Positions 12,151-54,094 of a stretch of DNA of 64,000 nucleotides are shown one piece after another. A program made the position numbers and the translations under genes. A model generated the notes under the pieces. The model worked only from the letters and a program-made list of their open reading frames with translations. It was not told the DNA's origin and ran no database searches. Origin of the DNA: Natronococcus occultus SP4 (GTDB lineage: Archaea; Halobacteriota; Halobacteria; Halobacteriales; Natrialbaceae); the NCBI RefSeq assembly GCF_000328685.1, contig NC_019974.1, forward strand, positions 3,401,001 through 3,465,000. Direction: 5' to 3'. Numbering within the stretch: position 1 is the first letter of the stretch; every line of letters starts with the position of its first letter.

Positions 12151-12390
12151 GGCAGGCAGTAACTGGCGAACCGATAAAAGCTTCCCGGCAGAGGATGTTG
12201 TTAGCATGGAACAGGAGCGTTCGGCGGTCACGAGGACGTCGTCACTCGCCGATCGCAATCGTCCATTACCGGCGGTCCCGATCCAGTAATGGTTTCCTAC
12301 GGTCGGATCAGTCGCGGGAATAGCCGATTACTCTGCTGTCGTATTTCTTGAGAAAATGATATTACCGTCGGTCGTGTTACTCCAAGCGCC

Positions 12391-12540
12391 ATGTCATCGA
12401 ACGACAAGACACTACGAACGTTCCTCACGGAGCATCCGCGGCTGCTGGGCGTCCTGTTCGCTGGCTGTCTCCTGCTGTCGCAGGTCGGGACGGCCGCGGC
12501 CGACCTCGGCATCGCGGGCAACGGCGGAGGAACCTGGTAA
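12391..12540 (+). CDS. DUF7503-like micro-membrane protein (49 aa)
   Basis: This is a 49-residue protein: a polar N-terminus ending TEHPRLLG, one hydrophobic segment LLGVLFAGCLLLSQVGTAAA (about residues 18-37), and a short Gly-rich tail ending GGGTW. This layout matches the small haloarchaeal single-span proteins I know as DUF7503. A TATA-like GATATTA at 12358-12364 fits a leaderless start. It converges with the CHAT gene, stops 6 bases apart. The function is unknown; membrane insertion is predicted from hydrophobicity. Confidence 0.7.
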   Translation: MSSNDKTLRTFLTEHPRLLGVLFAGCLLLSQVGTAAADLGIAGNGGGTW

Positions 12541-12546
12541 TCGACC

Positions 12547-14619
12547 CTACAGCTCGGTGAACCGGTCGTCGGTCGACCAGTATCTATCGCCGTCGTAGCG
12601 AACGGGAATCTCCGCGAGGCGGAGGAATCGGGCGAGCGAACCACCCGAGAGCTCGATCGGCGGGAGCTCGGTCCCCGCGAGGAAGTGTCGGTCGACGCCG
12701 TCGATGTAGGGGATGTACTGGGCCCCGACCCCGCTGTCGACGTGGTAGAGCTGCAGGTGAAGCCGGTAGCGACCGTCGTCGAGGGGTTCGATCCGGCAGC
12801 CGTTGGGAACGCCGCTTCCAGCCTGTCCGACCGTAACGCTCCCGTCGCCGACGACGAGATACTGGTTGCCGACGAGGTGGGTCTCCCGGGCGAGTGCGGC
12901 CGCGTCCCGGATCGTGAACCCGTTGTTCAACAGCCGCACGACGAACCGTCCGACGGCGATCGCGTCGCGGTTGCCGACGTCGCTGAGCGTGACGATTCCG
13001 CTCACTCCGCCCTGCTCGATCACGCGGCGGCCGACGTCGTACGACCGACAGCCGTTGATCAGAACGGCGTCGACTCCGACTGCCGGCAGCTTGCCGGCCT
13101 CGAGGACGTCCTCCTTACAGACGAACGCGCCGTCCTCGACGTGGCCGACGTAGTGGAGGAAATCGAGATCGGCCGCGAACAGCTCACGGAGCCGATCGGT
13201 CGTGACGTTTCTGTGGACCGCGACCTCGAAGGGGAGCTTCTCGCGTTCGCCGTAGAGAGTGCTGTCGCCAGCGTCGAACTCCGCCGCCATCGCTGGATCG
13301 TTACAGACGACCGCTACCTCGGCGGTGCCGTCGGACGGCGAGCGCTCGAGTCCGTTCTCGTAGGCGGTTCGGAACAGCTTGTTCGCTCCGATCGGAACAC
13401 CGCTCCCGAGCCACGCCTGTCCGAACGCGTCGGCGTCCGGCGGAGAGACGTACGACCTGTCGTCCTCGGAGTCCGGCGCCCCGGTCGATCGGGTAAACTC
13501 GTCGATCGCGAGCGCGGTCAGCGGTGCCGGCTCGTCGTCGGTCCGTGCTTCGGGTGCGGGACGAACGATCGACAGCTCGTTGACGAGGAAGGGAAGGACC
13601 GTCGCGTTCGTCGGTTCGTCGGTCGCGTGCGTCACGAGGTTCCACCGCGGGAGGAGATCCGCGATCCGTTCGTGCGGGATCGAAAGCGCCGTTTCGATCC
13701 GCTCGCCGAGCTCGGCCTCGTAGAACTCGTCGATGGCGAAATCGAGACGAGCATCGAGTTCGTCGCGCTCGTGGAGTTCGACGGGGTAGAGCCCCTCCGT
13801 TCGGGCCACACAATCGAAAAAGAACGCGTGCTCGAGGACGCGCCCGATGGTCCTGGCGACCGACTCCTCGTCGTTCCCGAGAGGGTACGCGAACCCGCTG
13901 TCGGTTTCGAGACGAGGATCCGAGCCGACTTCGACGCTCGCCGCGAGGTAGTGTGCGAGGGGGCTGGCGGCGTAGATCGTCGCTCTGTCCGGGGGGACGA
14001 CGAGCCGGACGCCGGTGTCAGGCGGCGTGGCGGCGTCGGGGATCTGCAGCTCGGAGCCGAGCTCGAGACACGGTGGGTGGCCCCGAAACGACGGGAGCGA
14101 GCGATCACACTCGCGGGTCTTCAGCGCCGAGCCGAACGTCGAGACAGCTCTGGCCAGATCCGCCGGTTCGGCGGTCGTCGTAACCGTTGTGGCGGGGCGT
14201 TCGTGCCGGGAGCGGGCCCCAAGCCGAATCTCCGTCGACTCGCCGAAATCGAACGCCAGGCGGTCGTCGGCCGACGCGATCGTCACCGCGCTCGTCGCGC
14301 GCACGTAGAGTTTGATCGGTGCCATCAGCTCGAACACGTACTCTCCCGCCGGGAGCCGCTCGTAAGCGCAGTGTTCGGCCTCGAGGACGACCTCACCGCT
14401 CGGATCGCGCGCGTACACCGGGACGACGTACGGGAAGATCAGCTCCGCGACCGTCAGCTCGACGGCGCCGTCGACGGGAAAGGAAAAGCCGGTGGGCTCG
14501 ACCGGTCGAAGCGAGATCCGTCGATCGGTCCGGAACGGACACCGTCTGTTCTCGATCGGGTCGACGACGGTGAGCCCGTGTCCGTCGTCGAGCGGTTCGA
14601 ATCTCGGTTCGGCGGTCAT
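12547..14619 (-). CDS. CHAT-domain (caspase-like) protein
   Basis: This is a 690-residue protein. The C-terminal third (about 430-600) has the CHAT pattern of the caspase clan: DLDFLHYVGHVEDGAF with the candidate catalytic His at about 493, and VLINGCRSYDVG with the candidate Cys at about 524, followed by GGVSGIVTLSDV and VGDGSVTV strands. The His-Cys dyad therefore looks intact. The N-terminal half has beta-rich segments (residues 1-140) and a helical linker, unassigned. The ATG at 14619 overlaps the stop of the upstream HalOD1/DUF7504 gene (ATGA), so they are cotranslated; the longer frame opening at 14682 would overlap that gene further. The protease substrate is unknown. Confidence 0.8.
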   Translation of the reverse strand: MTAEPRFEPLDDGHGLTVVDPIENRRCPFRTDRRISLRPVEPTGFSFPVDGAVELTVAELIFPYVVPVYARDPSGEVVLEAEHCAYERLPAGEYVFELMAPIKLYVRATSAVTIASADDRLAFDFGESTEIRLGARSRHERPATTVTTTAEPADLARAVSTFGSALKTRECDRSLPSFRGHPPCLELGSELQIPDAATPPDTGVRLVVPPDRATIYAASPLAHYLAASVEVGSDPRLETDSGFAYPLGNDEESVARTIGRVLEHAFFFDCVARTEGLYPVELHERDELDARLDFAIDEFYEAELGERIETALSIPHERIADLLPRWNLVTHATDEPTNATVLPFLVNELSIVRPAPEARTDDEPAPLTALAIDEFTRSTGAPDSEDDRSYVSPPDADAFGQAWLGSGVPIGANKLFRTAYENGLERSPSDGTAEVAVVCNDPAMAAEFDAGDSTLYGEREKLPFEVAVHRNVTTDRLRELFAADLDFLHYVGHVEDGAFVCKEDVLEAGKLPAVGVDAVLINGCRSYDVGRRVIEQGGVSGIVTLSDVGNRDAIAVGRFVVRLLNNGFTIRDAAALARETHLVGNQYLVVGDGSVTVGQAGSGVPNGCRIEPLDDGRYRLHLQLYHVDSGVGAQYIPYIDGVDRHFLAGTELPPIELSGGSLARFLRLAEIPVRYDGDRYWSTDDRFTEL

Positions 14620-15839
14620 CGCTCGTCGGATCGGCCGAGTCCGATCCAGTCGGTCGTGTACCCGCTCTCGTGGAGGTGCCACCGCTGCTGGGGGCCACAG
14701 TCGCCGGCGCGAAGCTCGACCGTCGCGTCGAACGACGGTTCGAGACGCTCCACGACCGGGCTCTCGCGACCGACTGGAAGCACGAAGTGGCCCAGCCCCG
14801 AGACGTCCCGTACCGCCTCACGGATCGGTTCGAGGAGAGCGACGGTCCCCTCGGCTCCCCGCTCGTCGATGATCGGGCGCAGCGAGTCGACACAGAGCCG
14901 CAGATCCCCGGGCTCCGAGAGGGACGCCCCGGTTTCGAACGCGCGGACACGAGTGGCGACGGTCGCGGCGAACTCGTCGAGATCCGTCGGCTCGTCGACC
15001 ACGTGCCCTCCCTCGCCGACGGGCGTTCCCGTCGTGGCGACCGAGCGCGCGCTTATCGCGTAGTCGACGATCCGGGCCGATCCGGCGCTCGTCGGTCCGA
15101 GCCGATCGGTAACGACGCCGGGGTTGCGATCGAGCAACGCGAAAAGGCGTCGCCGGTTCCGGTCGGGATCGCCGAGGAGGTTCGTGCTGGCGACGTCGAC
15201 CAGGTCGTCGGGCACGCCACCAACGATCAACACGTTTCCGCCAGTGCGTTTCAGCCGACCGAGCGTGGAACCGAGGCTGATCGTCCCTCCGGCGTCGACG
15301 ACGACGTCGTAGCCGAGAACGGAGAACAACACCGTCGCACCGGGTCGTGGCACGCCGTTCTCGCGCCGTCGGTTCAGCTGGGTCAGCGCGTCCGGATCAG
15401 CGATCTCCGCGAGGGCCGTCCGAACTCGGCTTCGTTCCCACCCCGAGCGGTCGGCGATCGCCGAGACGAGCCGCACCGCGAGAGGGCGATCGTCGGGCTC
15501 CTCGACGACCGAGACGTGTGTCCACTCGTCGACGACCGAGATGCCGTCCTCGTCCGGATCCGTGACCTCGATCTCCCCGTCGGCTCCGACCCGTACCCGG
15601 TAGTCGACGTACCGAAAGACGAGCGTCGGCCACGGACGGTCCGGATCGCCGTCCTCGAGGAGTCGGTCGAGGGCGTCGACGTCGACCGTCTCGTTGAGTG
15701 GCGGCAACTCGAGCGGGGAGATTCCGGTCTCGTTCGCGACCCGTTTGATAATCGCAATGCTCGGACGCGACCGAATCCCGGCGGCTGTCCCGTCGCTCTC
15801 GTCGACTCCGGTCTCGTCCCGGGATCGGTCGGTCGTCAT
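14616..15839 (-). CDS. Double HalOD1 plus DUF7504-like protein
   Basis: This is a 407-residue protein. Two HalOD1-type domains are visible, about residues 26-92 (PSIAIIKRVANETGISPLEL ... FRYVDYRVRVGADGEIEV) and 118-188 (LAVRLVSAIADRSG ... FSVLGYDVVVDAGGTISL). Residues 200-390 resemble the haloarchaeal DUF7504 family, a RecA-like fold (GGNVLIVGG, then LRLCVDSLRPII), but no Walker A GxxGxGK/S/T is present. It is probably an adaptor or sensor rather than an ATPase. It is first gene of a two-gene operon with the CHAT protein and divergent from the DUF7344 gene. Confidence 0.72.
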   Translation of the reverse strand: MTTDRSRDETGVDESDGTAAGIRSRPSIAIIKRVANETGISPLELPPLNETVDVDALDRLLEDGDPDRPWPTLVFRYVDYRVRVGADGEIEVTDPDEDGISVVDEWTHVSVVEEPDDRPLAVRLVSAIADRSGWERSRVRTALAEIADPDALTQLNRRRENGVPRPGATVLFSVLGYDVVVDAGGTISLGSTLGRLKRTGGNVLIVGGVPDDLVDVASTNLLGDPDRNRRRLFALLDRNPGVVTDRLGPTSAGSARIVDYAISARSVATTGTPVGEGGHVVDEPTDLDEFAATVATRVRAFETGASLSEPGDLRLCVDSLRPIIDERGAEGTVALLEPIREAVRDVSGLGHFVLPVGRESPVVERLEPSFDATVELRAGDCGPQQRWHLHESGYTTDWIGLGRSDER

Positions 15840-15994
15840 CCGTCACGGGGTACGACCGACGCTTAGGAAAAGCTCGCGGATACCATACGTCTCACCTGTA
15901 TAAAAATAACTCCGAAAGTAACAAATATATTCACTCTTCCTGAACGATCTCTGTATTGCTTTCGGACGCGCCGTGGTAGTACCGCCCTAGCAAG
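15840..15994. promoter_or_regulatory. AT-rich divergent promoter region
   Basis: Between the HalOD1/CHAT operon and the DUF7344 gene the DNA turns strongly AT-rich. On the minus strand TTTTTATAC (about 15900-15908) can serve the operon; its expected leader is about 40 bases. Such a shared region is the natural place for autoregulation by the winged-helix protein, which is inference. Confidence 0.55.
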
Positions 15995-16002
15995 CTTATT
16001 AA
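15995..16002 (+). promoter_or_regulatory. TATA box of the DUF7344 gene
   Basis: CTTATTAA lies 24-31 bases before the ATG at 16026. This spacing argues for leaderless initiation at 16026 instead of the in-frame GTG at 16011. Confidence 0.6.
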
Positions 16003-16025
16003 CAGGGATCGTGAGCCTACAGTAT

Positions 16026-16436
16026 ATGGCCGATTACCGCTCGGAAGATACGGAAGACCACGTCACGGCGACTGAACAGGGAGTCGAGCGACCCGTCATC
16101 GGCGGGCGACGGGCGACGATCGACGAGTCCCTCTCCCTTCTCAGCAACCGCCGACGCCGGGACGTACTCTACCGGCTCTCCGAAGCGGACGTCACGAGCG
16201 TCGACTCGCTGGCGGCGACGATCGCCGCCCGCGAGGCGTCGGTTCCCGCCGAACAGCTCTCCGCGGACGACCGAGAGCGCGTTCGGATCGAGCTCTATCA
16301 CACGCACCTGCCGAAGCTGGCGGATCGGGGACTGATCGAGTACGACGACCGCAGCGGAACCGTCCGATGGACGGCGCCGACCGACGTCCTCGAGTCGCTG
16401 CTGGAGTGTTGCTACGAACTCGAGACCGAGACGTAG
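16026..16436 (+). CDS. DUF7344 winged-helix protein
   Basis: This is a 136-residue acidic protein with the haloarchaeal DUF7344 pattern: ESLSLLSNRRRRDVLYRLSE, a middle helix ending RVRIELYHTHLPKLADRGLI, then EYDDRSGTVRW as the wing. The arrangement matches winged-helix transcription factors. It is divergent from the HalOD1/CHAT operon and is the obvious candidate regulator of it. A second, shorter family member lies at 36098. Confidence 0.8.
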   Translation: MADYRSEDTEDHVTATEQGVERPVIGGRRATIDESLSLLSNRRRRDVLYRLSEADVTSVDSLAATIAAREASVPAEQLSADDRERVRIELYHTHLPKLADRGLIEYDDRSGTVRWTAPTDVLESLLECCYELETET

Positions 16437-41939: not shown

Positions 41940-42485
41940 TTACTTGCCGGTGACGGCGGCGAAGTTACCGGAGACGCTCGCGCCAGCCTGGACGTTGTTG
42001 TTGGACTGGTCGGCGAAGTTACCGGCGTTAGCCGTACCCTTGTAGGCGGTGGCGACGTTGTCACCCTGCTTCAGGTCGTTGTGCTGGGAGACGGCCTGGA
42101 ACTGGTTGGTTTCAGCGTAGGAGTGCTGGCCGATGGCGACGACGTCGTCAGCGTGCTTGCGGTCGTCGTCCTTCTTGTCGTCAGCGTGCTTGCGGTCGTC
42201 GTCCTTCTTGTCGTCAGCGTGCTTGCGGTCGTCGTCCTTCTTGTCGTCAGCGTGCTTGCGGTCGTCGTCCTTCTTGTCGTCAGCGTGCTTACGGTCGTCG
42301 TCCTTCTTGTCGTCCTTCGGTGCGTCCTTCTTGTCCTTGTCGTTCTTGTCGTTGTACTTATCGTTATGTTTGTCCTTGTCGTGTTTGTCGTCGTAGCTTC
42401 CCGCTGCTGCGGTTCCGGCGAAGCCCATGAACATCAGGCTGCCGAGCAGCGCGATCGTCATCGTGAGTGCGAGTGCGCGTTTCAT
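41940..42485 (-). CDS. Secreted curlin-like protein with K/D/H tandem repeats (paralogue 1)
   Basis: This 181-residue protein has a Sec-type signal peptide at residues 1-28 (KR at 2-3, hydrophobic core, cleavage near TAAA), then a highly charged stretch with five copies of DDKKDDDRKHA, then a C-terminal segment (about 115-181) with ETNQFQAVSQHN, QGDNVATA and NNVQAGASV. The Gln/Asn-rich spacing resembles curlin repeats of amyloid fibre subunits. Two paralogues lie at 45134 and 46641. It is convergent with larC. The function is unknown; the amyloid idea is inference. Confidence 0.75.
   Translation of the reverse strand: MKRALALTMTIALLGSLMFMGFAGTAAAGSYDDKHDKDKHNDKYNDKNDKDKKDAPKDDKKDDDRKHADDKKDDDRKHADDKKDDDRKHADDKKDDDRKHADDKKDDDRKHADDVVAIGQHSYAETNQFQAVSQHNDLKQGDNVATAYKGTANAGNFADQSNNNVQAGASVSGNFAAVTGK
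42144..42308 (-). repeat. Five tandem 33-base coding repeats
   Basis: There are five head-to-tail units of exactly 33 bases (starts at 42144, 42177, 42210, 42243, 42276) inside the secreted protein gene. They are almost identical even at silent positions (one third-position difference in the last unit), indicating recent expansion by slippage or recombination. The two paralogues lack the repeat. Confidence 0.95.
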
Positions 42486-42982
42486 TGTTGGTGTAGGGAC
42501 GATGTCGGCTCAACGAGCAGGCGGGACCGACCGCGACCGAGAACGATAGCCGCGGCTCCTCGTGATCCTGCCGTCTCGTCGCCACCTGACACGTTGCCCG
42601 TCTGAGACTCACCACGGAGTGGCATATGAACTGAGGGTACAGTTTCGCGATGTATCCCCGTCCTAGTACCGGTAGGCCCTGTTCACAGCTAACGGTGATG
42701 AACGTCATCGCGAGCCGAATGTCGTTTTGCTGTCGCTACAGAGCAGGTAAGATAGGCCGTGTGTTTCTCGGCTGAGGTGCCGAGAAACGAACCGGCCAGG
42801 TCGCGATCGCCCCGGTTGGATTCGACCGTGACTACCCTTCACCACACTATGCGAATTACAAATATCATCACATTCGTCCGCTCAAATGTTACAGAGTTAT
42901 CCGATAAAATTGTCGCTTCAGACCTCGTGTAATAGTATACGAAGAAGAGCCGGCTGAATAAGAGTTTGCGTCGTCCGTCGGC
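42486..42982. other. Leader/promoter region and featureless DNA
   Basis: The part nearest the gene carries the upstream motif shared with both paralogues (42619-42648). The rest, to 42982, becomes AT-rich and shows no convincing reading frame. Confidence 0.5.
42619..42648 (-). promoter_or_regulatory. Shared upstream motif, copy 1
   Basis: This 30-base block begins 134 bases before the ATG of paralogue 1. On the minus strand its core is AAACTGT, then GTTCA. It matches about 21 of 30 positions of the blocks at 45566 and 47067, which lie at similar distances before the other two paralogues. Confidence 0.6.
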
Positions 42983-43451
42983 TCAGTCTCCCTCGTCGCC
43001 GTCAGCATCGTCGTCGATCGGAATCGAGATCGCATCATCTCAGTCGCTCGTAGACGATGTCGTTGACTGCGAGACGCTCGTTGAACTGACACTCGACGAA
43101 CTGTTGACAGTCGACTGGATAACGTTCGTGTTCTCTGTAATACTAACGCTGGTACCGGATCCGCCCGCCGTCCAGACGATCGACACTGATGTCGACCGAG
43201 TCCCGCCGTCTTTGGCGTCGATGTGTATTTCGACGTCCGCTACACCTGAGTCGAGCGTATAGATTATGCGCCCCAGGGGAACGTCTCGATTTCGGCATCC
43301 TGGTCGGGTCGATCTCGTTCGCTTCGTCCGTCGCGTCGGAAACGACCTTCGTCGAAACGGAGACGTCGTCTTCGGTATCGACGGACACATCGACGTGCGT
43401 TTGCCCGGTCTCGCGGGTTACCGTTCCCCAGGGAAATTCGGTTTCGGTCAT
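42983..43451 (-). pseudogene. Frameshifted small acidic protein gene
   Basis: The reading starts at 43451 (MTETEFPWGTVTRETGQTHV), continues with amphipathic strands to about NEIDPTRMPKSR, then must shift frame to continue DVPLGRIIYTLDSGVADVEI, TSVSIVWTAGG and a Ser/Thr-rich segment. After a stop at 43040 a further shift restores an acidic end, AISIPIDDDADGDEGD, ending at 42983. At least two frameshifts are therefore needed, so the gene is broken. The family is not recognised. Confidence 0.6.
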
Positions 43452-44042
43452 TGGTTCGGTAGTGCTCGTATGGTCGTCTGTGGCTCTCGAATCAGCTACG
43501 AACAAGGCGGAACGCTCCGAAGTTCCCGCAGCGTCCTCGTACTGAGTGCCGGTCCGCGTGGGAGGCGCGTTCCGCTCGTCGTCGGTCGGTCCGTGTTGAG
43601 AGTCCGCCGTTGCCCTCTTTCTCTCTCATCTGCTCGATTCGTTTTGAACGACGGGAATCGTTCAACCGATAGGGCTCGCCTAATCGATCTCCGATATTAG
43701 CCCGGGAACACAATGACTTGTTACTGACCGGTCAACTGGTTCGGAGTCAAGCCCGAGGCTTCACCGTTAAGGTCGGCCGTCCGAAAGCCGAACGAGTGGT
43801 CGCGTGCGAGTGTAACTCCCTTGGGTTTTCTTGTGCGTCAGCTGGAATTCCCATCCGTGTTGTGTCCGTGAGGATCGGTCGCTCTACCCGATCCGACAAC
43901 CCCCGAGACTCTCGAGGAACTCGGCCTGCTCGAAGTTTCACCGCACCCTCGACACGGTTTTGAGGGGGCCGCATTTCCAAACCAACGACCGCTTCACGTC
44001 AGGGTTCAATATTCGCCACGACCGTTCTTGATTAATGGAGTA
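43452..44042. other. Decayed region without an intact gene
   Basis: No intact frame is convincing. On the + strand near 43890-44000 a coding-like segment (TLEELGLLEVSPHPRHGFEG) appears, probably a remnant of a lost gene. The right end abuts the insertion-element terminal repeat at 44043. Confidence 0.45.
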
Positions 44043-44103
44043 CGCTCTTCCGTAGGAGATTGTTGATACTACTGAACGGTCACTGGCGAGTCGAAGAGGA
44101 CAA

Positions 44104-44125
44104 GGGCACCGCATCAGCGGTGCCC
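44104..44125 (+). repeat. Perfect inverted repeat inside the insertion element
   Basis: GGGCACCGC and GCGGTGCCC are separated by ATCA, just before the transposase start. It may shield the transposase from outside transcription. Confidence 0.8.
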
Positions 44126-44132
44126 GCTACGG

Positions 44133-45013
44133 ATGATTCCGCTCGATGTGTTTGGCCCGGAATCAGTCGCAGCGGACCTGCTCCAACAGGTTCGCTGGCG
44201 TAATGGTGTGAGTTGTCCTCACTGCCGTTCTAAGCGAACGGTTAGAAACAGTAGCTATGGGTGCTTCAGTGGTATCTCTGTAAGGATTGCGAACGCACGT
44301 TTAATGACAAGACGGGCACGATCTTCTCTCGCTCGAAAATCGCACTTCGCCGGTGGCTGTTCTCCATCTACGCGTTTCTCCGGTTTAACACGAGTCTCCG
44401 ACAGCTGCAGTACGAAACTGGGGTGAATCACAAGACGATCCACCGGCGTATCGAGCGCTTCACCAGAGCGCTCGATGCGCCTTCCCTCGATCTTCTCGGA
44501 CCAATCGAAATCGACGAAGTGTATGTCTCTGCTCGGAAGAAAGGCCACGAGTGCGACTCCTGATCGCGCTCGTATGGCTTGTCCACACGTGGGCGCAGAG
44601 CATATGATGGCGAAAGCCACCCGTGTTCATCCTCGCTGATCGCGGTACGGGACAGCGATACGTGATTCTAGCGAAAGCCGCTGACGAATTGACGATTCGA
44701 CTCCTCTTGACCGACCGTCAAGAGGAGTCGCTGACTGCCTATACGGATGGCTTTCGCACGTACGAATCGCTCGAAGAAGACGAAGCATACGACCGTGAAT
44801 ACGTCGTCCATGGTGGCGGTGAATACGCCGACGACGAGGTACACGTTAATACCTGGCGAGCCACGCGTCGCTGACGCGACGGTGGCTCTCGCCCCATTGA
44901 GGTATCTCAAAGGACAAGCTCACGCAATATCTCAGAGCGTTCTAACTGCGGCGAGAATTATATGGAAAAGGGGACGAAAAGCACTCAAACGCGCTATCCG
45001 AGCACCGCTCTAA
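44133..45013 (+). pseudogene. IS1595-family transposase, multiply disrupted
   Basis: The pieces read in order: MIPLDVFGPESVAADLLQQV with zinc-ribbon CPHCRSK, a frameshift near 44260, QWYLCKDCERTFNDKTGTIF and GPIEIDEVYVSARKKGHE (first catalytic Asp), a stop at 44561, a further shift near 44625, VFILADRGTGQRYVILAKAA and AYTDGFRTYESL (second Asp), then HVNTW, another shift, and LKRAIRAPL at the end. The family is IS1595 (ISXO2-like DDE). At least three frame changes plus a nonsense codon make it nonfunctional. Confidence 0.85.
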
Positions 45014-45133
45014 AATCAACAATGTGCTACGCAAGAGCGTTATTTTGAAACGGCGTAAACACGGTCCGGTATCCAAAAAAGACGAAATAACGGTTACAAT
45101 CACCGAGCTGGTCTATATTAGCGGCGATCGAGA

Positions 45134-45457
45134 TTACGTGTCAGCGTAGTTGACGCTGGTAGTGACGCCAAGCTGTGCGTTGAGGTTCGCTTGATTCTGA
45201 GTCTGGTCTGCAACAGCCGTATTCCCTATGCCGGCGGCGATGGCGGTGTTGTCACCCTGGGCTGCGTAGTTCGACTGGCTCACATACTGCACCTGGTTCG
45301 TCTCCGCATGCGCGTCCTGCGTGACCTTATCACCCTTTTTGTCTTTATCCTTGTCGTTGTTATCGTAGTGAGATGCCGCTGCCGTTCCGGCGAACCCCAT
45401 GAACATGAGGCTGCCGACCAGTGCGATCGTCATCATCAGCGCGAGTGCGCGTTTCAT
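45134..45457 (-). CDS. Secreted curlin-like protein (paralogue 2)
   Basis: This 107-residue protein has a signal peptide at residues 1-27 nearly identical to paralogue 1, a short charged linker (DNNDKDKDKKGDK), then the repeat-like core ETNQVQYVSQSN, QGDNTAIA, GIGNTAVADQTQNQ, NLNAQLGV. The spacing of GNTAxxxQ is curlin-like. There is no DDKKDDDRKHA array. It keeps an open frame while its surroundings decay, implying selection. Secretion is predicted; the role is unknown. Confidence 0.72.
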   Translation of the reverse strand: MKRALALMMTIALVGSLMFMGFAGTAAASHYDNNDKDKDKKGDKVTQDAHAETNQVQYVSQSNYAAQGDNTAIAAGIGNTAVADQTQNQANLNAQLGVTTSVNYADT

Positions 45458-46240
45458 TGGTAGATCACCAGGTACGTCCCACGCAGGCGACCACCTGTCG
45501 TCTCCCGCTAACAGCAGTAGTCACCATCCACCGTGGAGCGGTACCCAGTCCAGTCTTATGACGAAGTCTCACTTGAACCCAGAGAACAGTTTCACACCGA
45601 AGTAGTGAGTTGGCGTTTCGAACGCGAGAATCGGAGCGATACGTGACGCGCCAATCGCTACGGACGTCTTTCTGTCGGCGGTACAGTAACGCTATTGTCC
45701 ATTCTATCGGAAGTTTCTATAACCGACACATCTCGTTCCTGTCCCCGAAATAACCGATAAAAACGATTCAACGAACACTAACAGGGGAACATCATAGAAA
45801 TAAGAATCCACCTCTTCGAATATTCCCTAATTGTTTCATGAGAATCATCACCAAATATTAACATACAAGAATTCGTTTTGTTCACGTATCGTTAGCTCGG
45901 CTTGGTTTCGAAACGGACACCGAGGCATCTCTTTTCTGGAATGAATGTAATCACATACATTTCAACTATCAGGTCGTTCTCTCCGTGATTGGCGTCATAA
46001 CATCCTCCCGAACCTATCAGGAGAGAGACTATTGCGCCAGAGCGGAACAGAATAACAGGACGTGACCGTTCCGCTTCTGATTGTGTCGATACTGGTCGTC
46101 GGCGCGCCGACAGGACCCTCAGCAATGGTCCCGTGACGGTCTCGAGTCGAACGCCGTATCTTTGAGCGGAGAGTATCGTCTTCCAGTTTGGTGACCGATC
46201 GCTCGAGGAGACACCTAACTGTGACCTCGAGCGGCGACAA
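45458..46240. other. Non-coding part of duplication copy A
   Basis: This holds the upstream region of paralogue 2 (shared motif at 45566-45595), then AT-rich DNA conserved with 46965-47700 at the nucleotide level (for example ATCATAGAAATAAGAAT in both). No intact frame is credible. Confidence 0.55.
45566..45595 (-). promoter_or_regulatory. Shared upstream motif, copy 2
   Basis: This block begins 109 bases before the ATG of paralogue 2. It is highly similar to the block at 47067 and recognisably similar to that at 42619, which is outside the duplication. Confidence 0.6.
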
Positions 46241-46249
46241 AGCGGTCGC

Positions 46250-46364
46250 TGAGAGTATCCAGTTCTACGACGTGAGCGCAGAGTACGACGACGCGGATGG
46301 CTCAAGAGAGCGAGCTGCCGCTTCGAAGGTAATTCGGCGAGTCGAGGCACCCGTCAGTCACTGA
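46250..46364 (+). pseudogene. larC: Remnant of the larC 3' end
   Basis: Near 46262 the + strand reads FYDVSAEYDDA, matching the C-terminal VYDVSAEYDDA of the intact LarC that ends at 41810. The following bases (GGCTCAAGAGAGCGAGCTGC) align with the intact gene with one deletion, and the frame then runs to a stop at 46364. Only the last 35 or so codons survive. As at the intact locus, a convergent curlin-like gene follows (278 bases away). Confidence 0.75.
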
Positions 46365-46640
46365 GGAGTACGGTCCAGCTCAATCGCGATTCAGGAGATA
46401 TACGCTGATCGCGACACTGAGATGCTGCAGGCGCCGAACGCTGTGAGATAGAACCCAGACAGTCTATTTCTCGGCGGACTGTGGTCGGAAAGTTCGGTCC
46501 GGTTCGCGCAAACGGCAACTTACCGAGTACCCGCGGTCCGGTTTCTTTGCCTTGAAACGGCGTAAACCGCGATCTGGTATCAAAAAAGCCGAAATACCGG
46601 TTGTAACTTCGGAGCTTATCGATATCAGTGGCGACCGAGA

Positions 46641-46964
46641 TTACGTGTTAGCGATGTTCGCGCTGGTAGTGATGCCAACCTGCGCGTTGGCGTTCACTTG
46701 ATTCTGAGTCTGGTCTGCAACAGCCGTATTCCCTATGCCGGAGGCGACGGCGGTGTTGTCACCCTGGGATGCGAAGTTCGCCTGACTCACCGACTGCCAC
46801 TGATTCGTCTCCGCGTGCGCGTCCTGAGTGACCTTATCACCCTTTTTGTCTTTATCCTTGTCGTTTTTATCGTAGTGGGATGCCGCTGCCGTTCCGGCGA
46901 ACCCCATGAACATGAGGCTGCCGACCAGTGCGATCGCCATCATCAGCGTGAGTGCGCGTTTCAT
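46641..46964 (-). CDS. Secreted curlin-like protein (paralogue 3)
   Basis: This 107-residue protein is closely similar to paralogue 2: signal peptide, DKNDKDKDKKGDK linker, ETNQWQSVSQAN, QGDNTAVA, GIGNTAVADQTQNQ, NANAQVGI, ending ANIANT. The longer frame to 47015 adds residues outside the signal peptide and is rejected. Substitutions versus paralogue 2 are concentrated outside the Gln/Asn/Gly positions, which suggests structural constraint. Confidence 0.72.
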   Translation of the reverse strand: MKRALTLMMAIALVGSLMFMGFAGTAAASHYDKNDKDKDKKGDKVTQDAHAETNQWQSVSQANFASQGDNTAVASGIGNTAVADQTQNQVNANAQVGITTSANIANT

Positions 46965-48370
46965 TGGTAGATCTCTGGGTACGTCCCACGCAGGCGACCA
47001 CCTTCCTGCTGGCATCGGTAGTCACCACCCACTGTGGAGCGTTACCCAGTCCGGTCTCATGACCGAGTATCACTTGAATCCGGAGAACGGTTTCACACCG
47101 AAGTAGTAGGTTAGCGTTTCGAACACGAGAACTCGAGCGAGACGCTACATATAAATATACTTAGATACCTTTTTGTCGACAGTATAGCAACGCTATTGTC
47201 CACTCTATCGGAAGTTACTATAACCGACACATATCGTTTCTGTCCCCGAAATAACCGATGAGAAACAGTTCAACGAACACTGACAGAGGAACATCATAGA
47301 AATAAGAATTCACCTATTCGAGTAGCTTTCCAGTCATTTTATGAAGATTGTTACTAAATACCAATACACAAGAGTTCCGTTCTGTTCGCGCATCGTTACG
47401 CTCGGCTTGGTTTCGAAACGGACACCGAGATATCGATTTCCAAATTGAATTCTCCTTTTTGGGAACGGAATGCGTTTCACATACGTTTCAACTATCAGGT
47501 TGTTATATCCGTAATCAAAGTCAGAACGTCCTTCCGAATCTATCAGGAGAGCAATCATCGCGTCAGAGCCGAATAGAATAACGGAACGTGATCGTCCCTC
47601 TTCTCATTGTATCGATGCTGATCGTCGGCGCGCCAACAGGCTCCTCAGAAATGGTATCACGATGGTCTCGGGTCGGGATATCGGTACCGCTGATCGAAGA
47701 GGATCGTCTTCCAGTTCGGGGACCAATCGCTCGAGGAAACATACCTAGCTGTGACCTCAAGCGGCGACAAACGGTCGAAAAGCCCCTTCAATACCACGTG
47801 TCTATCGGTTAAATCGACGAGCAGGGTGACAGCGTCTCGATCGGTATTGACGGCAGCGAGACGAGGACCGCTCGAGAAGCTGAGCGAATGAGTGATAAAT
47901 GCGGTCCGAGGACGTCGCGAGAACCGACTGCTGCTGGGTAGTCACTTCTGAGTGGTCAACGCCCTCGATCGCCACAAGAGTTCTTTCCATCGACACTCGC
48001 CAACGGCACTGTTTCGTCCCCATGGAACGGAAGTAATTCGCATATATGACGGCTCGACTGTCGTCGTTCTCGGACTGGATCGATTGCGTGACCTGAAGTA
48101 CGTCTCGACCAGGAGCCGATGGCAACTGTCGACGTTTCGGTGTAACGGCACAAGAAAGAGTTGCCCGTTCGCTTCCTCGTGGTTCGGAAGCTGTCCGCGG
48201 CGGAACTATTCCGGATCGGACCGGACCGACGGGCTGAGGGGAAACCCTCTCCCCGGGCGGAACGGAGGCTCGTTAACGGCCGTAACGATCTCTTCGGCTT
48301 TTGAAATCACCCTCGATTGAGAGCAAATATGAGTAAAAGGAGGAGAGAACGACGACGCCGATCACATAAC
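46965..48370. other. Long region without an intact gene
   Basis: The first 850 bases are the non-coding part of duplication copy B, including the shared motif at 47067-47096. From about 47815 to 48370 nothing protein-like is seen on either strand; short frames have abnormal composition. Confidence 0.55.
47067..47096 (-). promoter_or_regulatory. Shared upstream motif, copy 3
   Basis: This block begins 103 bases before the ATG of paralogue 3 and carries the same core as the blocks at 42619 and 45566. Confidence 0.6.
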
Positions 48371-48377
48371 GGAGGAG
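48371..48377 (+). promoter_or_regulatory. Strong Shine-Dalgarno sequence
   Basis: GGAGGAGATC lies 10 bases before the ATG at 48388 and nearly matches the anti-Shine-Dalgarno complement GGAGGTGATC. Most genes in this window show no such site, so it is notable and fixes the start of the oxidoreductase. Confidence 0.7.
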
Positions 48378-48387
48378 ATCACCGGCT

Positions 48388-49374
48388 ATGACGGGTAACA
48401 GTCGGCTCGCGGTCGGCGTGATCGGCGTCGGCACGATGGGCCAACACCACGCCCGTGTGTACGACGACCTCGAGGACGCCACGCTCGCTGGCGTCTTCGA
48501 CGTCGACGCCGACCGAGCGAACGCCGTCGCCGATCGTCACGGAACCGCGGCGGTGGGTCTCGAGACGCTACTCGGCCGGGCTGACGCCGTTTCGGTCGCC
48601 GTCCCGACGGCCCACCACCTCGAGGTCGCGAGGAGCTGTCTGGAGGCCGGCGTTCCGATCCTTGTCGAGAAACCGATCGTTGGCGACCTCGCGGACGGAC
48701 GGACGCTGCGACGGCTCGCCGAGGCGGCCGGGGTCACGGTTCAGGTCGGACACGTCGAGCGGTTCAACCCGGCGGTCGAGACCCTCGCGGGGCTCCTCGA
48801 GGACCTGTCAGTTATCGACATTACCGCGCGGCGGCTCGGGCCGCCCCCCGAACGGCCGATCGCGGACAGCGCCGTCACCGACCTGATGATCCACGACATC
48901 GACGTCGTCCGCGCGCTGCTCGAGGACGACCCCGTCGACGTGGCGGGCTGTGGCGTCGCCGGCGACCGTCACGCCGGTGCCCTGCTCGAGTTTCCCGACG
49001 CGATGGCGTCGCTGACCGCGAGCAGACTGACCCAGCGCAAGGTTCGGACCCTCGAAGTCACCACCGAGGAGTGTCTCGTCGCGGTCGACTACCTCGATCA
49101 GTCGGTCGAGATCCACCGGCGTTCGATCCCCGAGTACGTCGAGCGCGACGAGGGGGTACGGTTCAGACACGAGCGCCTGATCGAACGGGTTCGCGTTCCG
49201 AACGAGGAGCCCCTCCGGCGGGAGCTCGCGTCGTTTCTCGAGGCCGTTCGAACAGACTCGACACCCGAGGTGACCGTCGATGACGGGCTCGCTGCCCTCG
49301 AGATCGCCCGGCGCATCGAACGCGAAGAACCCGACGATCGGCCGACGGTTGATCTGGAGGTTCCGAATGACTGA
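48388..49374 (+). CDS. Gfo/Idh/MocA-family oxidoreductase
   Basis: This 328-residue NAD(P)-dependent sugar dehydrogenase type enzyme has a Rossmann loop GVIGVGTMGQHHARVY (residues 9-24), the EKPIVGDL motif with the conserved Lys, and the substrate-domain motif MIHDIDVVRALL with the catalytic-region His. Family members oxidise nucleotide sugars or inositols. It heads a surface-glycan gene cluster, so a nucleotide-sugar substrate is likely. Confidence 0.9.
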   Translation: MTGNSRLAVGVIGVGTMGQHHARVYDDLEDATLAGVFDVDADRANAVADRHGTAAVGLETLLGRADAVSVAVPTAHHLEVARSCLEAGVPILVEKPIVGDLADGRTLRRLAEAAGVTVQVGHVERFNPAVETLAGLLEDLSVIDITARRLGPPPERPIADSAVTDLMIHDIDVVRALLEDDPVDVAGCGVAGDRHAGALLEFPDAMASLTASRLTQRKVRTLEVTTEECLVAVDYLDQSVEIHRRSIPEYVERDEGVRFRHERLIERVRVPNEEPLRRELASFLEAVRTDSTPEVTVDDGLAALEIARRIEREEPDDRPTVDLEVPND

Positions 49375-52421: not shown

Positions 52422-52632
52422 CTCAAACTCGCCCGTATCGAGGGTTCTTCCATGGAGATGCCTATTACTCGACATCCGCCTGAAGACGGAGGTATGCGCT
52501 ATCAGTTTATCAATACTACTGGCAATGGGGAGAGGGCGGGAAAATCAAATCAGAGAACATGCGACCAGTTGATCCGGTTGAGAGCGCCCACCCCTTCGTG
52601 GTCGGTAACTGTTAAGGGAGAACTCAGAGACA
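52422..52632. other. Intergenic start of the AT-richer island
   Basis: No gene is seen. Base composition changes from the GC-rich glycan genes to the AT-richer Orc island here. Confidence 0.5.
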
Positions 52633-52782
52633 CACCACTGTTTCCGGAGCTACGCCTTCCTACACACCATCGGTTCCGGAGCTACGCCTTCCTACACACC
52701 ATCGGTTCCGGAGCTACGTTTGGGCTAGTATACTAAGCGATCCCCTCCACTATTGAGCTACCCCTCCACTGTTTCCGAAGCT
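52633..52782 (+). repeat. ORB-like repeats 3' of the orc1/cdc6 gene
   Basis: Copies lie at 52633-52652 (CACCACTGTTTCCGGAGCTA), 52665-52684 and 52697-52716 (exact 32-base period), and 52763-52782 (CCTCCACTGTTTCCGAAGCT). Read on the minus strand the last is TTCGGAAACAGTGGAGGGG, with the G-string typical of haloarchaeal origin recognition boxes. All point the same way. Confidence 0.8.
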
Positions 52783-52837: not shown

Positions 52838-54094
52838 TCAGTAGTTAGAAATCCCGGACTGTAGGAGATCATTGTCGGTGGCCGTAGACTGGATAATGTT
52901 GGCGATCTCCTCAAAGCGATTTGTCGAGAGAAGAACATCCAGAACTGCGTTTAGTGGTACATCAAGTTCGTACTCGTGGTAGCGACCCGCCGAGAGTCCT
53001 TCGTTGCGTTCGTAGACGCAGATCAGTCCGAGCATATTCATATCAGAAAGGTGATCGCGAACGCGGCGTTCACTCACATTATCAGTGTCGAGCCGGTCAC
53101 AGATGTTCACATATCGTTCGTAGAGATCTCGAGAACGAATTGGGACTTCATTGAGCGCCTGGTGGTAAGCAAGCGCACAAAGGACAGCGTGGCCCTGGGT
53201 TGTGAGTTCTTGCATCCCTTCGTACAGTTGGTTCTTTTCGAGCTCCTCCTGAGCATCACGGACATGCTCTTCAGTTACGGTGTCAGCGTCTTCTGCTTGA
53301 GCCAGTTCACCGGCTTCACGAAGAAGACGAATTGCCTGCCGAGCTGAACCAGTATCCTGCGCAGCGAAAGCAGCACAGAGTGGCACAACCTCACCACTGA
53401 GGACACCCTCGTAGAACGCTTTCTCAGCACGGGGTTCGAGAATTGATCGAAGTTGATTTGCGTCGTATGGTGGGTAGAGGATCTCTTTTTCCGCTAACGT
53501 GTCTTTGACTTTCGGCGAAAGATTCTCCCGAAACTGGAAATCGTTACTGATACCGATGATAACCGGTCGGACGTCCTCGACATAGCCATTCGATCGCGCC
53601 CGAGGGAGCCCATAGAGAATCTCATCCGAATGCCCAATATTATCGATTTCGTCGAGAACAACGATTACTGTTCCCCCAAGTGCATTGAGTTCCTCATAGA
53701 GAAGATCGAAAACCCGCTGCTGTGAATACCCAGTGGTGCTGATTCGTTCTTTAGTTTGGTTCTCTCGGAGCGTATTCACAAGTGCGACGGCGACCTGGTA
53801 GGAAGAAGAAAGATTCTCACAACTTACCCACACGGTCGAAAGGTCAATATCATCGTACTCGGCAGCGTCGCGCTCGAGATGAGATAACATAAATTTCGTC
53901 GCGACGGTTTTCCCAGTTCCGGTTTTTCCATATAAGAAGATATTGGATGTTGGCCTGTTGTCAATGATTGGCTGAAGCGCCCGTTGATATTTCTCGAGCT
54001 CCTCGTCTCGTTCACGGATATCCTCAGGTTCGTAGGAATCATCAAGAGGTTCGGCGTTCGCGAATACCTGCTGATCACGCTCAAACATTCCCAT
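52838..54094 (-). CDS. Orc1/Cdc6 replication initiator
   Basis: This 418-residue AAA+ initiator starts MGMFERDQQVFANAEPLDDS and has RDEELEKYQRALQPI, Walker A YGKTGTGKT (about 54-62), Walker B VIVVLDEIDNIGH (about 143-155), sensor-1 IGISNDFQF and a C-terminal winged helix (VRDHLSDMNMLGLI). It should bind the ORB-like repeats on both sides of the gene. Codon use is AT-richer than neighbouring genes, suggesting origin on a plasmid, virus or secondary replicon. Confidence 0.94.
   Translation of the reverse strand: MGMFERDQQVFANAEPLDDSYEPEDIRERDEELEKYQRALQPIIDNRPTSNIFLYGKTGTGKTVATKFMLSHLERDAAEYDDIDLSTVWVSCENLSSSYQVAVALVNTLRENQTKERISTTGYSQQRVFDLLYEELNALGGTVIVVLDEIDNIGHSDEILYGLPRARSNGYVEDVRPVIIGISNDFQFRENLSPKVKDTLAEKEILYPPYDANQLRSILEPRAEKAFYEGVLSGEVVPLCAAFAAQDTGSARQAIRLLREAGELAQAEDADTVTEEHVRDAQEELEKNQLYEGMQELTTQGHAVLCALAYHQALNEVPIRSRDLYERYVNICDRLDTDNVSERRVRDHLSDMNMLGLICVYERNEGLSAGRYHEYELDVPLNAVLDVLLSTNRFEEIANIIQSTATDNDLLQSGISNY

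Follow-up and report, generated by a model that had tools for sequence, protein, structure and literature searches.

The locus at 12391-16436 of the window (the whole stretch of 64,000 nucleotides of Natronococcus occultus SP4 that was analysed, contig NC_019974.1) appears to belong to an extensive family of haloarchaeal CHAT proteases (regulated cysteine proteases with a caspase fold), and the general unit of this family is the CHAT gene together with the gene of the DUF7503 microprotein, not the set of four genes present in the window. The best explanation, an iKaiC-linked CHAT protease with DUF7503 as its dedicated membrane partner, has in our opinion slightly less than an even chance of being right as a whole (the likelihoods attached to mechanisms here and below are judgements).

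Organisation of the locus

The first-pass annotation had placed four genes in this locus (DUF7503, CHAT, a double-HalOD1/DUF7504 protein and DUF7344), and the sequence and the profiles agree with it on the position of all of them. The DUF7503 gene (12391-12540, + strand; PF24335, E 1.3e-15, 57.1 bits against a curated cut-off of 27) encodes a microprotein of 49 aa, laid out as an n-region with HPR, a short hydrophobic stretch, an AxA-like site and the C-terminal tail GNGGGTW. A conserved, A+T-rich TATA-like element (12352-12363, + strand) lies 27 nt before its start; the block is part-conserved in an alignment of 8 loci, and its position suggests that DUF7503 has its own promoter and a transcript that is probably leaderless. 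Only 6 nt (12541-12546) separate the DUF7503 stop codon from that of the convergent gene, which encodes a putative CHAT/separase-like cysteine protease of 690 aa (12547-14619, - strand), assigned from a structural model, fold searches and an invariant dyad. The longest open reading frame of this gene begins with GTG at 14682, but translation more likely starts from the ATG at 14619. The sequence ATGA at 14616-14619 contains both the stop of the HalOD1/DUF7504 gene and this CHAT start, which is the 4-base overlap described previously; the same ATGA overlap is found in Natronococcus relatives (loci L096, L097, L099 and L127).

The product of the HalOD1/DUF7504 gene (14616-15839, - strand) is matched by PF18545 (HalOD1) in two stretches and by PF24336 (DUF7504, residues 191-407, inactivated KaiC-like by prediction) at E 3.2e-42. 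Divergent from it is the gene of a DUF7344 winged-helix protein (16026-16436, + strand; PF24035, E 2.3e-25), and the HalOD1 and DUF7344 profile matches are both above their curated cut-offs. An Rfam search of the locus gave no structured RNA matches.

The CHAT protein has a predicted caspase-type fold and an invariant dyad

The window CHAT protein, whose closest named relative is from N. jeotgali (78% identity), matched no Pfam, NCBIfam or PADLOC profile, and a search of the PDB sequences with the CHAT family profile gave no significant matches. An AlphaFold model of the protein was built from 58 sequences (mean pLDDT 88.6, pTM 0.89). Foldseek with this model retrieved separase, SAVED-CHAT and gingipain at E 1e-6 to 1e-5, and the best PDB matches were clan CD proteases; the model was aligned with gingipain (Z 18.7, rmsd 2.9, 236 residues), separase (Z 17.1, rmsd 4.5, 243 residues), SAVED-CHAT (Z 16.0, rmsd 2.5, 167 residues) and Craspase TPR-CHAT (Z 15.0, rmsd 3.9, 218 residues), DdvA being a further fold match (Z 16.9). 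The predicted domains, whose borders are estimates from secondary structure, are a beta domain (residues 1-140), an alpha/beta domain (about 145-425), the caspase-fold domain with H493 and C524 (428-600) and a C-terminal beta domain (605-690).

The intact His/Cys motifs noticed by the first-pass annotation are borne out by conservation: His493 and Cys524, in the motifs FLHYVGH(493) and NGC(524), are unchanged in 70/70 homologues. The annotation had left the spacing of the two residues to structure prediction, and the model puts them at the sequence positions needed by the caspase fold, the predicted strands beta3 (487-491) and beta4 (518-522) stopping just ahead of H493 and C524 respectively. 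A search of 59 genomes with the Pfam CHAT model (PF12770) found three family members over the cut-off and further ones just below it. The fold matches to clan CD, the placement of the dyad and the relatives that pass the Pfam cut-off indicate that the window protein belongs to a divergent CHAT family with, according to the model, a caspase-type fold. We infer that the protein is proteolytic; it would be cytosolic and probably latent.

CHAT and DUF7503 form a convergent pair

The neighbourhoods of 152 CHAT genes were picked by similarity to the window protein and are consequently biased to its close relatives; in this sample DUF7503 is convergent with and close downstream of 134/152 CHAT genes, with a median gap of 4 nt and overlapping stop codons in 21 of the 134. 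Two other loci (L163 and L172) have divergent DUF7503-like ORFs, missed by the profile, in the same convergent position downstream of CHAT; the L163 protein reads SHPKLMEYAFAG...NNGP. The search made from DUF7503 alone gave the same picture, since 29 of 30 loci adjoin a CHAT gene tail-to-tail and the 30th is at a contig end. The coupling of CHAT to a membrane microprotein proposed by the first-pass annotation is supported. Among 117 genomes (G000-G116), 95 have both genes, five only CHAT, 17 neither, and none only DUF7503. In two annotated haloarchaeal plasmids (a small sample with an incomplete gene table), the other convergent pairs were at least 16 nt apart and mostly more than 100. The CHAT/DUF7503 arrangement exceeds what would be expected by chance.

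The dependence is one-sided. DUF7503 lies beside only about half of the CHAT copies (about 35/72 in 28 genomes, counted by eye with fragments merged by hand); compared with the 29/30 loci found from DUF7503, this indicates that a DUF7503 gene predicts a CHAT gene whereas the reverse does not hold, and CHAT can probably work without DUF7503. The near-exclusive pairing strengthens the idea that the microprotein is a membrane target, and the most likely role of DUF7503 would be that of a CHAT substrate or membrane tether. That it acts exclusively as a positive tether or co-factor, localising CHAT and remaining uncut, would agree with this pairing and with the conserved membrane segment, but DUF7503 is missing beside half of the CHAT copies, and we consider this reading distinctly improbable.

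The convergent CHAT and DUF7503 genes lie so close together that their transcripts can avoid an overlap only by terminating within a coding region, and overlapping transcripts would set one gene against the other. We find it very improbable that the locus is a type I toxin-antitoxin-like system, in which DUF7503 would be a small hydrophobic toxin repressed by antisense RNA read through from CHAT: the convergent genes, the 4 nt median gap, the overlapping stops and the TATA-like element of DUF7503 itself are what such a system would have, but CHAT is itself conserved as a protein, and in the exceptional locus L055/L136 DUF7503 is on the same strand as CHAT, 1.4 kb away.

DUF7503 is constrained as a protein

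Most dN/dS values of DUF7503 among the Natronococcus-group copies were between 0.12 and 0.36 (a few very close pairs, with few changes, were higher), and the nucleotide changes in this group are mostly at third codon positions, both pointing to purifying selection at the protein level. The common pattern is [HN]P[RK]MxGVLFTxLLLLSQAG, followed by a small-residue AxA-like site and a tail often ending in GP. Two kinds of protein would fit this pattern, one that spans the membrane once and one made up of a signal peptide and a product of 7-12 residues; the conservation of the hydrophobic part favours the former, and the conservation of the tail within the genus favours the latter.

The second possibility corresponds to DUF7503 being a secreted peptide precursor of the RRNPP-like kind, in which a cut at the AxA-like site would free a tail of 7-12 residues (GNGGGTW in the window) as an extracellular signal, with CHAT and iKaiC on the response or maturation side. 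In most of the 64 members analysed the site carries small residues at -3 and -1 and is preceded by a short hydrophobic core and by polar residues; a tail of 7-10 residues, often ending in GP, follows it (signal-peptide features were judged by eye). Furthermore, GNGGGTW is common to the window and N. pandeyae (L100) despite an insertion of five residues ahead of the tail, and six Natronococcus-group copies have exactly the same tail. Against this, the hydrophobic part (HPRMxGVLFTxLLLLSQAG) varies less between genera than the tail does, which is odd for a mere signal peptide, and no receptor for the tail peptide has been identified; we regard the peptide precursor as unlikely. If DUF7503 is instead the membrane partner of the CHAT protease, it would be anchored by its one hydrophobic segment with the short tail outside, and the candidate cut site is the nearly invariant residue that follows [HN]P just before the membrane segment (Arg or Lys in 62/64 members), whose conservation may, nevertheless, only reflect the positive-inside rule.

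DUF7504, HalOD1 and DUF7344

DUF7504 has a predicted KaiC/RecA fold (Z 15.9, rmsd 2.9, 178 residues), and the Walker A motif (GK[ST]) was sought in its alignment and was absent. Owing to this combination, DUF7504 is best described, at the level of the model, as an inactivated KaiC (iKaiC) and not as a KaiC ATPase. The joining of HalOD1 to a divergent, probably inactivated KaiC has been published under the name HalOD1-iKaiC (arCOG02452; Galperin et al. 2018, PMC5847659); a literature search on DUF7503, DUF7504 and DUF7344 found no papers in the collection covered. The iKaiC protein, which has two HalOD1 domains in the window and is upstream of CHAT and co-translated with it in many loci, would be the adaptor that switches CHAT on upon a cellular signal. 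Roughly half of the loci that resemble the one in the window have no DUF7504 upstream, and no other conserved neighbour was seen in the CHAT loci lacking it.

A survey of gene co-occurrence, proposed by the first-pass annotation, gave a divided answer: the genes do co-occur in other genomes, but HalOD1 and DUF7344 do so in a single clade only. HalOD1 is confined to a clade of 34 rows on the CHAT tree (Natrialbaceae, Haladaptatus and a few others) with DUF7344 inside it, and outside this clade DUF7504 is alone or absent. DUF7344 is upstream and divergent in 27/152 CHAT loci, of which 23 or more also have HalOD1, and may be a clade-specific local regulator. The idea that the four genes form a single conserved system was consequently rejected, HalOD1 and DUF7344 being additions in one CHAT clade. 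DUF7503 tails that do not end in GP were found in 28/30 HalOD1 loci versus 1/37 DUF7504-only loci; the tail class was rejected as an independent sign of co-evolution with the sensor, given that the tree gives only one independent pair.

The family is near-universal in haloarchaea

Of 195 genomes sampled from the order, 173 (88%) have a match to the CHAT family, mostly in two or more copies, and the genome of the window has four. When 84,980 species were searched, the best 80 named matches all came from haloarchaea; within the same phylum, distant relatives were found in one other family only (four genomes, E about 1e-70), where they adjoin dnaG. One of these distant relatives, near dnaG (L231, 5040-7100, - strand), has lost the His/Cys motifs (IGRHN, LCTDSS), and three sister copies keep both. 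The family is present in 25 plasmid records, all from haloarchaea and labelled almost only as 'hypothetical protein'; no relatives were found in viral contigs and phage records, and none of 27 family members matched the PADLOC 2.0 profiles (0/27). The neighbourhoods of the CHAT genes are varied and some of them are housekeeping, with ribosomal-protein genes alongside. L005 (4472-9874) has two tandem CHAT copies, one with DUF7503, beside ribosomal-protein and RNA polymerase genes, a setting that recurs in L073, L079, L083, L086 and L087.

These data bear on the cell-death or defence role put forward by the first-pass annotation, in which a HalOD1/DUF7504 sensor would turn on CHAT and the cut DUF7503 would be a cell-killing pore. 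This antiviral module would be in line with the fold relatives Craspase and SAVED-CHAT, which are CHAT protease effectors, and with DUF7503 being a membrane microprotein. It is weakened by the presence of CHAT in most genomes of the order, usually in several copies, by the varied and partly housekeeping neighbourhoods (including the distant relatives by dnaG), and by the null results in PADLOC, phages and viral contigs; we judge it clearly unlikely. The wide distribution, the multiple copies and the lack of any copy in the viruses searched favour a regulated, core protease rather than a role in defence or suicide.

Comparison with known systems

SAVED-CHAT and Craspase TPR-CHAT (Csx29) also combine a caspase-fold CHAT domain and a His/Cys dyad with a separate sensing module. 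Unlike them, the window system is without a SAVED, TPR or CRISPR part; its candidate sensor joins HalOD1 to an inactivated KaiC; it is chromosomal and near-universal; and its partner is a membrane protein of 45-50 aa. Separase and gingipain are the best structural matches, and several match rows (324-600) also take in an additional alpha/beta domain that precedes the catalytic domain, but identity to the window CHAT is 8-16%, the N- and C-terminal beta domains are different, and there is no securin or cohesin. The published HalOD1-iKaiC shares with the window protein the same joining of HalOD1 and a divergent KaiC, whereas in the window the gene encodes two HalOD1 domains and is translated together with a neighbouring CHAT gene; the text of PMC5847659 mentions neither CHAT nor caspase. 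CHAT-gasdermin systems likewise place a protease gene beside a membrane-acting partner, but DUF7503, with its 45-50 aa and one hydrophobic segment, is not a gasdermin.

Other features of the window

Three paralogous genes for small secreted proteins (41940-42485, 45134-45457 and 46641-46967, - strand) share one signal peptide, a stretch rich in D and K, and repeats of a curlin-like kind (SQSNYAAQGDNTA...GNTAVADQ). A 33-bp tandem repeat (5.2 copies, 99% identity) lies in the first of the three genes; the proteins are possibly a haloarchaeal functional amyloid. The A+T-rich region 42500-48400 (GC about 0.52) has few long ORFs and a broken transposase-like ORF (44133-44874), and gave no match in an Rfam search. 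An Orc1/Cdc6-type gene (52838-54094, - strand) is located in another A+T-rich stretch and has a 32-bp tandem repeat nearby (52630-52718), making this region a candidate replication origin.

A candidate gene family for the Haloferax caspase-like activity

Haloferax volcanii has a strong caspase-like activity that cuts after Asp and whose gene is unassigned, and archaea are said to lack caspase homologues despite this activity (PMC3615174). DUF7503 and DUF7504 are present in the H. volcanii genome, and four other Haloferax species carry the DUF7504-CHAT-DUF7503 unit (L146, L150, L171 and L175); the presence of DUF7503 suggests that H. volcanii has a CHAT gene as well. We hypothesise that the CHAT family is the source of the Haloferax caspase-like activity. 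A broader proposal, an ancestral haloarchaeal caspase-fold signalling protease with an iKaiC switch and a dedicated micro-substrate in the membrane (or a peptide signal), accounting for the Haloferax activity, has in our view a small chance of being correct; if true, an archaeal protease signalling pathway would be behind that unexplained activity.

The pairing with CHAT is the first functional handle on DUF7503, and gives CHAT a candidate partner. A relative of caspases and separase with an intact dyad is present, unannotated, in nearly all salt-loving archaea, a group with good genetics, and the unexplained archaeal 'caspase activity' thereby gains a testable candidate gene family.
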